The notes beneath the pieces were generated by a model. That model saw nothing but the letters and a program-made list of their open reading frames with translations, searched no databases and was not told the DNA's origin. This document shows, piece by piece, positions 41,356-44,954 of a stretch of 64,000 nucleotides of DNA. The DNA lies in NCBI GenBank assembly GCA_020852815.1, contig JADZAN010000003.1, forward strand, positions 62,001-126,000, written 5' to 3'. The stretch comes from Gemmatimonadaceae bacterium. Lineage in GTDB: Bacteria; Gemmatimonadota; Gemmatimonadetes; Gemmatimonadales; Gemmatimonadaceae. A program made the position numbers and the translations under genes. Every line of letters begins with the position of its first letter. Position 1 is the stretch's first letter.

Positions 41356-41558
41356 TGGCGCCAATCTACCGTATCCACTGACATCCGAGAGGGGCGGTGC
41401 GCCGATCTCAAGCAGCCATTGGCACTTGGCCCGATCGGTCCAAAGCTCCCGCTCGTCAGGGATCACCCGGAGCGCTCCGGGGAGAAACCCTCGTTGCACC
41501 CTCTGGCGCAAAGACGGACCCTGGTAACAGCATTTTCCATCCCTGAACGGAGATCGCC

Positions 41559-42827
41559 ATGCCCGCGACGTTTACCCCCATTTCCAACGACGTGCTCGAT
41601 GGTGTGCGCAAGGGAGACGAGAAGTCGTTCGAGCGTCTCTTTCGCCAGCACTTCGATGCATTGATCGAGGAGGCGAAGGCCAACTTCGATGATGCCGCAG
41701 CGGCTCCCAAGGTCGTGGAGATTTCGGTCCTTAGGGCCTGGGAACAGCGCGCCTCGTTCGAGTCGTCGGCCGCGTTGGAGGCATTCCTTCGCAAGTCCGT
41801 TCACGATGGCGCCCTGCGGGAGAAGGGGCGCAAGGCCGCGTTGCACCGCTTCGAGGCGCACGAAGGGGTCCACGTCAAGAAGGGTCACAACGGCGCACCG
41901 GCCACGGCCGACGAGGTGTGGCAGCACGTTGCCGCGGCGTTGCACGCGCCGCCCCCCGATGCGTCGATCACCAGTGCGGCCAAGGCCGAGATGTCGCGTC
42001 ACAACGCCGCCGAGCACATGGCGGCGGTGGGGAAGCGTCGCTCGCCGCTCGTCACGCTGGCCTACTTTGGCGGCGCCGTCTTCGTCGTGGCAACGCTCCT
42101 GTGGGCCATCTTCCGCGAGTCACCCGCGCAGAAGGTATCGCGCTTCCTCAAGCATGCCGACTCGCAGGAGATCATCTCCAAGTTCGGGCAGGTGGGCTCC
42201 ATGACGCTGGGCGACGGGACCAAGGCCAAGATCGGTGCCGACTCCAAGCTCCTCATCCCGCCCGGCTTCAACACCGAGGTGCGCGCCGTCCGCGTGACCG
42301 GCACGGCATCGTTTGAGGTGGCGTCGGGACAGTCGCTCCCGTTCGAGGTTCGCGTCGGTGATGCCGCCGTGATCGCCACTGGGACCGCCTTCGTGGTGAA
42401 CTACGACACCGCCAGCTCCTCCGCCCTGGTCCGCGTCGACGAGGGGACCGTCGACGTCCGGTTCGGCGACAAGGCGAAGGAAGTGAGGTCGGTTGGTGCC
42501 GGCAAGGCGGTGACGGTGAGCAAGACCGGCGAGATCACCGATGCCTCGCAGGCGCAGGTCGACGAGACCACCGCGTGGACCTCCGGCCGCCTCGTGGTCG
42601 TCGACAAGACGTTGCGCCAGGCGCTCGAGCAGACGCGCCGCTGGTACGGCATCGCGCTCGTCCCGTCGGACCAGTCGCTCATGGAACGCAAGGTCTCGAT
42701 CGACGCCTCGCTCGACTCGTCCAAGGACATGATCGCCGACCTCGAGCAGTCCGGCAACATGCAGTTTGGCTGGGACGACAAGACGATGACGCTGTACGAC
42801 AAGGGAACGGTGAAGGCGAAGAAGTAG
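41559..42827 (+). CDS. membrane protein fusing a sigma-region-2-like domain to FecR
   Basis: 422 residues from ATG at 41559 (ribosome site GGAG). Residues about 10-100 (DVLDGVRKGDEKSFERLFRQ, VVEISVLRAWEQRASFESSA, ALEAFLRKSVHDGALREKGR) resemble region 2 of ECF sigma factors, including the core-binding helix and the F-x-S-x-x-A-L-x-A-F/Y-L signature. No region 4 follows. Instead come a linker, one transmembrane helix (163-184), a FecR domain (about 240-325, VTGTASFEVASGQSLPFEVR) and a C-terminal STN/DUF4974-like domain (335-415). Ordinary FecR proteins have a short anti-sigma N-terminus. FecR assignment is firm; sigma-like assignment is from pattern only. Confidence 0.8.
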   Translation: MPATFTPISNDVLDGVRKGDEKSFERLFRQHFDALIEEAKANFDDAAAAPKVVEISVLRAWEQRASFESSAALEAFLRKSVHDGALREKGRKAALHRFEAHEGVHVKKGHNGAPATADEVWQHVAAALHAPPPDASITSAAKAEMSRHNAAEHMAAVGKRRSPLVTLAYFGGAVFVVATLLWAIFRESPAQKVSRFLKHADSQEIISKFGQVGSMTLGDGTKAKIGADSKLLIPPGFNTEVRAVRVTGTASFEVASGQSLPFEVRVGDAAVIATGTAFVVNYDTASSSALVRVDEGTVDVRFGDKAKEVRSVGAGKAVTVSKTGEITDASQAQVDETTAWTSGRLVVVDKTLRQALEQTRRWYGIALVPSDQSLMERKVSIDASLDSSKDMIADLEQSGNMQFGWDDKTMTLYDKGTVKAKK

Positions 42828-42908: not shown

Positions 42909-44954
42909 CTACGCCCGGTCGCGCCTGACGAGGACCTTCCGCCCCTTGATCGTCGAGCTGCGCAGCGCGTCAACGACGTCGTCGGCCACCTCGTCCGGCA
43001 CCTCGACAATCGAGAAGCGATCGGAGATCTGGATCGCGCCGATGGCGCGCGAGTCGATCCCCGCCTCGTTGGCAATCGCCCCCACCAGGTCGGCCGGTCG
43101 AACCTTGGCCGTGCGCCCGGCACCGATGTAGAGACGGGCCACGTCCCACGTGGGCCCCTGGCTCCGCTTGTGCTTGCGCGGCGGGCCAAACGACTCGTCG
43201 CGCCCCGCGCCAGCGGCGCGCCGGGTGCCACGCTCACTGCGTTCACTGCGGTCGCCGCGGTCGCCGCGGTCGCCGCGGTCGCCGCGGTCGCTGCTCTCGT
43301 ACCTGCCACGCTCGGTGGCGTCGCGATCGGCATCGCGTCGTTTGGTGGCACGCTCTCCCGTCCACGCACTCCGCTCCGCCGAGCCCTCCGCGCGCTCGCT
43401 GCGTGGCGCCCACTCCTTGCGACCGGCGCGCTCCCCGCGCGGCGCCGCCTCCGCGCGATCCGCACGACTCGTGCGAGCCGCGCTGCTCGTGCGATCCGCG
43501 CGCGTCGGGCGCTCGCGGCGTGGCGCGGCCGCCGGGATCTCCTCCTCGTCAGGCGCCCCCTCGCGTGCCTCGATCTGCTTCACCGCCGCCGCCGCCACGT
43601 CCATCAGGTCAAACTCCTCGGCCAGCGATTCCACGATCACGCGATAGGCATCCAGCTCGCCCCCCAGGATCGTCTCGCGCAGCGAGGCGCGCGTCAGCTC
43701 GAGGCGGCGGGCGCGCAGGTCAGCGACCGTGGGGACCTGGGCGATCTCGATCTTCGACTTCGTGAGGAACTCGATGTTGCGCAGCAGGCGGTGCTCGCGC
43801 GGCTCGGCCAGCGTGATCGCCACCCCTTCGCGCCCCGCGCGCCCCGTGCGCCCGATGCGATGCACGTACGACTCCGACGCCGACGGCACGTCGTAGTTCA
43901 CCACGTGCGAGACGTGCTGCACGTCCAGCCCGCGAGCTGCAACGTCCGTCGCCACGAGGAGGTCGGTCTTGTTGGCGCGGAACTTCTTCATCACGCGATC
44001 GCGCTGGTCCTGCGACATCCCGCCGTGCAACGCCTCGGCGCGATACCCGCGGGCGTTCAGCGTCTCGGTGAGTTCGTCCACCTCGGTGCGCGTGCGGCAG
44101 AAGACGATGACCGATGTCGGATGCTCGATGTCGAGCACCCGCCCCAGCGCGGCCATCTTGTGCGCGCGCGGGACGATGTACGCCACCTGACGAACCTTCG
44201 CCGCCTTCCCCGCCGCCACCGGCTCCCGATCGATCTTGATCGTCTCCGGGTCACGCAGGTGCCGCGAGGCGATGGTGGCGATGCGCGGCGGGAGCGTGGC
44301 GGAGAAGAGCGCCGTCTGCCGCTCGGCGGGCGTGGCCTCGAGGATCGCTTCCAGGTCCTCGGCAAAGCCCATGTCGAGCATCTCGTCCGCCTCGTCCAGC
44401 ACGACCGTCTTCACCGCGTCGAGCGAGAGGCTGCCGCGACGGATGTGGTCCAGCGCCCGCCCCGGCGTGGCCACCACGACGTCCACCCCGCGCTTGAGGG
44501 CTCGAAGCTGCGTCTCCATCGACGCTCCACCGTAGATGGGGAGCGAGAGGACGCCGAGCGGCTTGCCATAGCGGTGCACCGCCTCGGCCACCTGCATGGC
44601 GAGTTCGCGGGTGGGGACGAGGATCAGGGCGGCGGTCCGCTCGCGCGCCGGCGCGTTGGGCGAGAGGCGGTGGAGAAGGGGGAGTGCAAACGCCGCTGTC
44701 TTTCCGGTTCCGGTGGCCGCCTGGGCGAGGACATCGCCCCCCGTCAGGAGCGCGGGGATTGCGGCGCGCTGGATCGGCGTCGGCTCCTCGTACCCCAGCG
44801 CCGTGAGCGAGGCAAGGAGGCGCGAATCGAGGCCGAGGGCTGCAAACCCCTCCGTGGCGTCGTCGGTGCGGGTGTCCGGATCGACGACATCCGCTTCCGC
44901 GGCGAGGACGGTCTCGAGCGAAACAGGGGGGGCAGAAATGGCACGAGGAGTCAT
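42909..44954 (-). CDS. DEAD-box RNA helicase with DbpA-type RNA-binding domain
   Basis: 681 residues. Q motif near 58-63, motif I AATGTGKT (79-86), Ib ATPGRALDH, motif II DEAD (VVLDEADEML), SAT motif FSATLPPR, motif V TDVAARGLD, motif VI HRIGRTGRAGR. A linker of about 130 residues, rich in Arg/Glu/Ser with RGD repeats, joins a C-terminal DbpA_RBD domain (VARLYIGAGRTAKVRPADLV to the end). This is the CsdA/DeaD layout of cold-shock and ribosome-assembly helicases, fitting its place opposite a cold-shock protein gene and near bS21. Confidence 0.95.
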   Translation of the reverse strand: MTPRAISAPPVSLETVLAAEADVVDPDTRTDDATEGFAALGLDSRLLASLTALGYEEPTPIQRAAIPALLTGGDVLAQAATGTGKTAAFALPLLHRLSPNAPARERTAALILVPTRELAMQVAEAVHRYGKPLGVLSLPIYGGASMETQLRALKRGVDVVVATPGRALDHIRRGSLSLDAVKTVVLDEADEMLDMGFAEDLEAILEATPAERQTALFSATLPPRIATIASRHLRDPETIKIDREPVAAGKAAKVRQVAYIVPRAHKMAALGRVLDIEHPTSVIVFCRTRTEVDELTETLNARGYRAEALHGGMSQDQRDRVMKKFRANKTDLLVATDVAARGLDVQHVSHVVNYDVPSASESYVHRIGRTGRAGREGVAITLAEPREHRLLRNIEFLTKSKIEIAQVPTVADLRARRLELTRASLRETILGGELDAYRVIVESLAEEFDLMDVAAAAVKQIEAREGAPDEEEIPAAAPRRERPTRADRTSSAARTSRADRAEAAPRGERAGRKEWAPRSERAEGSAERSAWTGERATKRRDADRDATERGRYESSDRGDRGDRGDRGDRSERSERGTRRAAGAGRDESFGPPRKHKRSQGPTWDVARLYIGAGRTAKVRPADLVGAIANEAGIDSRAIGAIQISDRFSIVEVPDEVADDVVDALRSSTIKGRKVLVRRDRA
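43241..43295. repeat. in-frame 9-bp repeat in the helicase linker
   Basis: Four exact GTCGCCGCG units (43251-43286) flanked by diverged ones. On the coding strand they give tandem DRG tripeptides in the disordered linker. Copy number is likely to vary between strains. Confidence 0.85.

Follow-up and report, generated by a model that had tools for sequence, protein, structure and literature searches.

IutY of Pseudomonas putida, a member of the ECF243 group, carries sigma-2 (residues 8–84) and sigma-4 (residues 100–164) regions, a transmembrane (TM) segment and a FecR-like part. It is described as an active sigma factor after cleavage by Prc and RseP, and its gene adjoins the receptor gene iutA (PMC5411451, PMC9249621). 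In ECF48, ECF52, ECF53 and some ECF36 proteins, the sigma factor is fused to membrane anti-sigma extensions of the zinc-finger or DUF2275 kind, and these proteins are regarded as sigma factors that proteolysis switches on (PMC8999054). RsoA of Bacillus subtilis is a stand-alone sigma-2 protein without sigma-4 that joins transcription initiation with SigO, and the sigma-like domain of PhyR, a protein of the general stress response, in which the polymerase- and promoter-binding regions are degenerate, titrates the anti-sigma factor NepR (PMC8103513).

Here we analyzed a 64,000-nucleotide stretch of a Gemmatimonadaceae genome (the window; assembly GCA_020852815.1, contig JADZAN010000003.1, positions 62,001–126,000), in which one gene (41559–42827, plus strand; open reading frame confirmed at exactly these coordinates) encodes a 422-residue protein that reads as a FecR-type membrane sensor with a FecI-type ECF region 2 replacing the anti-sigma domain. 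Like IutY, its nearest counterpart among known proteins, this fusion has a sigma part, one TM segment and a FecR part on a single chain, although its sigma part consists of region 2 only; unlike IutY, it lacks sigma-4 and the core-binding residues, and no receptor gene lies among its eight neighbours. With ECF48, ECF52, ECF53 and some ECF36 proteins it shares the placement of a sigma part and a membrane regulator on one chain, but its extension is FecR, unlike those described for these groups (PMC8999054). It resembles RsoA in having sigma-2 without sigma-4, but differs in having lost the polymerase contacts and in being tied to a sensor. As in FecR cell-surface signalling regulators, a TM segment, a FecR domain and a C-terminal part are present and align over 286 columns; unlike ordinary FecR proteins, the fusion has sigma-2 where the anti-sigma domain would be and no sigma neighbour. 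The likeness to PhyR, drawn by sequence only, lies in sigma homology with degenerate polymerase and promoter contacts, whereas PhyR combines an ECF structure with a receiver domain and has NepR as its partner, and the fusion has region 2 only and is membrane-bound, with no receiver domain among its Pfam matches. By this comparison, PhyR would be a better functional analogue of the fusion than IutY. No sigma-2-only FecR fusion was described in the titles and abstracts of the open-licence literature searched; the main ECF classification, which lay outside that search, might contain the group.

Results

The gene is preceded by GGAG (41549–41552), a likely Shine–Dalgarno-like ribosome-binding site 6 nt upstream of the ATG as read off the sequence. 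Its product comprises, all encoded on the plus strand, a sigma region 2-like domain (residues about 8–105, 41580–41873; from NCBIfam and profile–profile comparison), a His-rich linker (residues 110–162, 41886–42044; from alignment with ordinary FecRs and His counts), a single predicted TM helix (residues 163–185, 42045–42113; from hydropathy), a FecR domain (residues 210–298, 42186–42452) and a FecR_C/STN-like part (residues 345–411, 42591–42791; from Pfam and alignment with ordinary FecRs). The FecR domain matches PF04773 above the curated cut-off (E 1.2e-9). The lone hydrophobic segment peaks at residues 163–185 with a mean hydropathy of 2.1, and a comparable peak is present in 75 of 76 relatives. 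The first-pass annotation had placed a sigma-2-like domain on the same chain as a TM helix and FecR, which these matches bear out. It had also assigned an STN-like C-terminal domain; the C-terminal part, residues 345–411 included, does align throughout with ordinary FecRs, but the FecR_C match reaches 16.1 bits against a cut-off of 24.4, weaker than that assignment implied. A GKRR motif before the TM helix suggests that the N-terminus lies inside the cell. Genome searches found one full copy of the fusion in the source genome. The anatomy of the fusion, a FecI-type sigma region 2 with a TM segment and FecR and without region 4, can on these comparisons be regarded as firm, with little room for doubt.

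The relatives were assembled into a 76-row alignment of full-length fusions, with start codons picked by script and uncurated. Left out were L002 and L004 (the source genome's own ordinary FecR), L034 (a distant FecR), L092 (a duplicate of L016), L006, L089, L090 and L091 (halves at contig ends), L070 (cut), L087 (a fragment) and L083–L086 and L088 (without the N-domain); L003 gave no match. They were compared with 21 ordinary FecRs from the source genome and related genomes, with 30 FecI proteins (30 loci out of a longer list) and with 16 other ECFs, which are the source genome's 22 sigma-2 proteins less five that we read as group 2/3-like and one FecI that is among the 30 reference proteins.

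NCBIfam ECF models match the N-domain, with a best E of 6.5e-7 for this protein alone. At E ≤ 0.01, TIGR02985 (FecI type) matches 56 of the 76 full-length relatives (best 1.7e-8) and the SigE family model 51; Pfam Sigma70_r2 is sub-threshold on the fusion protein (E 0.04), and no more than 20 of the 76 have a match to it at E ≤ 1. In profile–profile comparison, the N-domain matched the 30 FecI proteins at 99.1% (E 5e-19) over 100 columns, corresponding to residues about 5–105, versus 1.4% for the N-termini of the 21 ordinary FecRs, and residues 98–165 matched region 4 at 0.1%, with no Pfam region-4 match in the protein. Because of these three values, we take the N-domain to be a region 2 of FecI type, with region 4 lacking. 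The earlier claim that residues about 10–100 resemble ECF region 2, with no region 4, thus holds, also when the N-terminus is set against anti-sigma domains. By the same values, an anti-sigma domain hidden in residues 1–109 and a region 4 hidden in residues 98–165 were both rejected. With a profile of the 76 N-domains, the 30 FecI proteins scored 34.8–68.2 bits, the best-scoring other ECFs of the source genome 37.4 and 35.9 bits, and none of the 21 ordinary FecRs more than 1.4 bits; against PDB sequences, ECF sigma factors ranked first (9n9q_C, annotated RpoE, E 3.1e-5; SigL, 0.0038). Trp61 is kept in 72/76 fusions and 30/30 FecI proteins versus 4/16 other ECFs, and Arg64 in 74/76, 28/30 and 0/16, respectively, so that these two residues appear as FecI hallmarks that are rare among the source genome's other ECFs. 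Besides them, the fold-associated positions Leu/Phe24 (76/76) and Phe/Tyr28 (64/76) are retained in the fusions. A CID match (PF04818, E 0.016–0.063, under the cut-off) was dropped as chance because only one of the 76 relatives has it.

Structures predicted from single-sequence input had mean pLDDT values of 37.0 and 60.7, too poor for use. The low-confidence model placed helices at residues 10–17, 21–42, 49–63, 71–82 and 85–102, and the shorter model contained five helices, the number expected of sigma-2. With the model of pLDDT 60.7, no solved structure reached E ≤ 0.001 in Foldseek, and the hits listed by VIA-align were at noise level, the sigma row among them (6tyg_F, Z 3.3) being indistinguishable from noise. 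With models this poor and structure matches at noise level, the fold similarity therefore rests on sequence.

The residues through which region 2 meets polymerase and promoter were counted at positions numbered as in the 422-residue protein of the window. The helix equivalent to region 2.2, which in sigma factors forms the polymerase clamp contact, was placed by profile alignment at residues 46–60 (41694–41738, plus strand) and reads A49-P50-K51-V52-V53-E54-I55, where FecI has A-E-[DE]-[LV]-[VA]-Q-[DE]. An acidic residue at position 51 occurs in 0/76 fusions, 30/30 FecI proteins and 15/16 other ECFs, and 69 of the 76 fusions carry Lys or Arg there; Gln54 is present in 4/76, 27/30 and 13/16, and an acidic residue at 55 in 5/76, 30/30 and 14/16. 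None of these three features is kept in 67 fusions and one is kept in nine, whereas FecI proteins have all three (27/30) or two (3/30). Pro50 was left out of this count, as RpoE-type sigma factors carry Pro there too in the alignment. The mean net charge over residues 46–60 is +0.54 in the 76 fusions versus −3.13 in the 30 FecI proteins and −2.19 in the 16 other ECFs. The Arg/His-rich equivalent of regions 2.3/2.4 was placed in the same way at residues 82–98 (41802–41852, plus strand). Its residues 83 and 87 correspond to Asn83 and Asn87 of FecI, which we take to be the residues that read the promoter −10 element; Asn83 is found in 2/76 fusions, 30/30 FecI proteins and 11/16 other ECFs, and Asn87 in 0/76, 29/30 and 4/16, respectively. 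The first-pass annotation had singled out the core-binding residues for a conservation check, and in the fusions they are lost. The polymerase-binding surface thus appears to have been both lost and reversed in charge; the N-domain has in all likelihood ceased to work as a sigma subunit, and we consider it probable that it does not bind polymerase.

Both roles that the first-pass annotation offered for the protein depend on that surface and fare poorly. A working sigma factor tethered to the membrane and freed by proteolysis would follow the precedent of IutY, in which sigma, TM and FecR parts share one chain and release is attributed to Prc and RseP (PMC5411451), and the source genome does encode a member of the M50 (RseP-type) protease family. 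With region 4 absent and the counts at positions 51, 54, 55, 83 and 87 as given above, we consider this role very unlikely, since a working sigma factor is hard to reconcile with the loss of both the polymerase-binding surface and the promoter-reading residues. In kinase-activated ECFs, phosphorylation can supply the acidic charge in the motif (PMC8103513); restoration by a kinase at position 51 or 54 was rejected, as no fusion has Ser or Thr at either position, and Ser or Thr occurs at position 55 in 19/76. A decoy that occupies the polymerase clamp without transcription would make use of the sigma-2 homology, but the charge of the clamp contact is reversed, as the Lys/Arg count at position 51 illustrates, and of all the roles considered here this one seems to us the least probable.

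Downstream of the N-domain, the alignment with the 21 ordinary FecRs sets in at profile column 114 (residue 110) and extends almost to the C-terminus (E 4e-44, over the 286 columns noted above). The first 24 shared columns, at the start of the linker, match the linker that follows the anti-sigma domain in ordinary FecRs weakly when taken alone (20%, E 0.0011). Because FecR homology starts at about residue 110, sigma-2 occupies the place of the anti-sigma domain. At least three His residues fall within the 40 residues before the TM helix in 71/76 fusions and in four of five relatives that lack the N-domain (N-less relatives), versus 1/21 ordinary FecRs. His153 is present in 75/76 relatives, and Cys is almost absent from the segment. 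Since the N-less relatives keep these His residues, the segment is tied to the FecR side and not to sigma-2; its composition makes metal or pH sensing possible.

These features bear on a reading in which the N-domain is an output module derived from sigma-2 but outside the sigma/anti-sigma network, so that the protein would be a membrane one-component regulator whose Arg/His-rich last helix binds either DNA or some protein other than a sigma factor, and metal might tune it by way of the His-rich segment. The segment at residues 82–98 is indeed basic, with a mean net charge of +3.66, and the His enrichment over ordinary FecRs and the near-invariance of His153 are in keeping with such tuning. 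FecI proteins (+4.47) and other ECFs (+4.0) are, however, as basic over the same segment, and the putative metal site, being retained in N-less relatives, is a feature of the FecR side. We consider an output module of this kind unlikely.

The genes around the fusion encode a DsbA-like thioredoxin, an RNase T-type exonuclease, a DEAD-box helicase and metabolic proteins, and neither a sigma factor nor a TonB-dependent receptor was found among the eight nearby proteins scanned. The DEAD-box helicase gene, at 42909–44954 (minus strand), is convergent with the fusion gene and encodes a DbpA RNA-binding domain preceded by a GDR/SER-repeat stretch. The earlier statement that no separate sigma gene adjoins the fusion extends to the window's whole 162.6 kb contig, which has no sigma-2 Pfam match, the genome's 22 matches all lying on other contigs. 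Among 48 fusion loci, several of them shortened by contig ends, none holds a full sigma factor besides the fusion itself, and one (L037) has a region-4-only match; a sigma gene lies within 4 kb of 19/20 ordinary FecRs. Apart from the gene itself, no group of frames in the neighbourhood recurs in more than 12 of 55 fusion loci. The STN Pfam domain was not found in the source genome, and a FecA-type receptor is therefore not in evidence. The genome has 22 region-2 proteins and two FecR proteins. An ordinary fecI/fecR pair in divergent transcription lies on its contig C24 at 350237–352056 (L002, L107, L169), and its contig C5 (65500–67200) encodes a 228-residue ECF-like protein (L167) that the Pfam region-2 model missed and that was found via region 4.

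This genomic context weighs on two readings that call for a partner protein whose gene lies elsewhere. The fusion could still be an anti-sigma factor, its sigma-2-like domain capturing ECF region 4 in trans and so doing the FecR anti-sigma job with another fold. The N-terminus of FecR is reported to bind region 4 of FecI (review, PMC9249621), the sensor half of the fusion is intact and most of the 22 sigma-2 proteins in its own genome are candidate partners; yet the 48 loci offer no sigma neighbour save the region-4-only match, and the literature examined yielded no documented packing of sigma-2 against sigma-4 in trans, so that we judge this reading decidedly unlikely. Alternatively, the fusion could supply region 2 of a two-subunit sigma factor whose region 4 comes from a second protein, as in RsoA/SigO (PMC8103513). 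Consistent with this, 13 of the genome's 33 region-4 matches fall, on comparison by eye, in frames for which Pfam gives no region-2 match. One of these frames, L167, appears by eye to be a complete ECF-type protein, and such pairing needs a polymerase contact whose residues are lost; a two-subunit sigma factor strikes us as extremely unlikely.

At E ≤ 1e-55, the full profile matches 94 of 179 genomes of the family, spread over 23 of 35 genera and including 70 of the 105 genomes that are at least 90% complete. These matches comprise 86 full-length copies, three interrupted at contig ends (G040, G252 and G393) and five without the N-domain. In a tree of the FecR part, the fusions and N-less relatives stand on one side and the 21 ordinary FecRs on the other (100/100), and the five N-less relatives form one group nested inside the fusions, from which we infer one origin and one secondary loss. 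The N-less relatives (L083, L084, L085, L086 and L088) come from five genomes of one genus (g9) and keep a short His-rich tail, the TM helix and the FecR part; a search of their loci for the sigma-2 domain as a separate gene gave nothing better than E 0.92. Among the matches listed outside the family in a profile search of 395 genomes of the phylum, none starts before residue 110. One genome outside the family, G250, gave a match beginning at residue 63 in another search; the locus concerned, L159, holds an ordinary FecR with a sigma gene nearby. A short exact-pattern search of wider contigs, which may have left out near relatives and so says little on other phyla, returned one distant FecR, from Sphingobacterium. 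In G079 (contig C14, 149020–150030), a fusion relative was matched in two pieces separated by an in-frame TAG, reflecting a decayed gene or a sequencing error.

Over 33 close pairs, which are not independent and were treated by a simple counting method, the N-domain has a median dN/dS of 0.20 and the remainder of the protein one of 0.225. Both parts are under purifying selection, and the N-domain therefore does something; five relatives have kept the rest without it, and the domain is therefore dispensable for some of the protein's functions. A functionless relic of a fecI–fecR fusion, or a chance resemblance, would sit well with the loss in one subclade and with the absence of the fusion, at the threshold used, from 85/179 genomes. 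Set against the dN/dS of the N-domain, the FecI match at E 5e-19 and the 86 full-length copies, it appears very unlikely indeed.

Discussion

The explanation that we favour, tentatively and at somewhat less than an even chance, is by analogy with PhyR that the protein is a membrane-anchored sigma mimic whose N-domain serves as a docking surface for a partner, either a sigma or an anti-sigma factor; the docking, taken as a separate part, is held about as tentatively, if anything a shade more so. The fusion probably had a single origin, and its route would have been a deletion in which region 4 and the anti-sigma domain disappeared and fecI region 2 came to abut the FecR linker. What is left of the sigma-2 surface would then be shown to a putative partner, sigma or anti-sigma, whose gene lies elsewhere; in response to a periplasmic signal, the FecR side would alter the mimic or free it by proteolysis, a logic akin to that by which the degenerate sigma-like domain of PhyR titrates NepR.

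Class I anti-sigma factors touch sigma-2 in regions 2.1 and 2.2 (PMC7406223). When the contacts of anti-sigma helix 4 in RpoE structures, as tabulated in PMC7406223, were mapped onto the fusion with an offset of +2/+3, positions 24, 25, 28, 29, 57 and 61 were found to keep their residue class and positions 50 and 54 to be changed. Most of the region 2.1 contacts and the hydrophobic region 2.2 contacts thus seem to be retained, whereas the polar ones differ, a pattern that fits mimicry weakly and folding equally, as the retained positions may serve folding alone. Mimicry of an anti-sigma target is also weakened because anti-sigma factors bind partly through the changed region 2.2 surface. Against the mimic further stand the lack of a conserved neighbour pointing to a partner in the 55 loci, the five relatives that keep the rest of the protein without the domain and the failure to find an STN-domain receptor in the source genome. 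More doubtful than the mimic itself is its elaboration into signal-gated docking, in which, within one lineage of the family, a FecR sensor would have exchanged its anti-sigma domain for the region 2 that belonged to its target and would use it within the sigma/anti-sigma network, with the polymerase face reversed in charge and a His-rich neck that is possibly metal-sensitive.

The fusion is a real, conserved and unusual architecture among sigma/anti-sigma hybrids. Because its N-domain escapes the Pfam cut-off for sigma-70 region 2, similar cases may hide in other phyla, and the 86 full-length natural sequences, together with a clade without the domain, make the role of each part testable. PhyR already provides an example of sigma mimicry and IutY one of a sigma/anti-sigma hybrid; the fusion would combine both. 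If the mimic reading is true, a sigma domain has in this family given up polymerase binding and been retained on a membrane sensor as a module for protein interaction.
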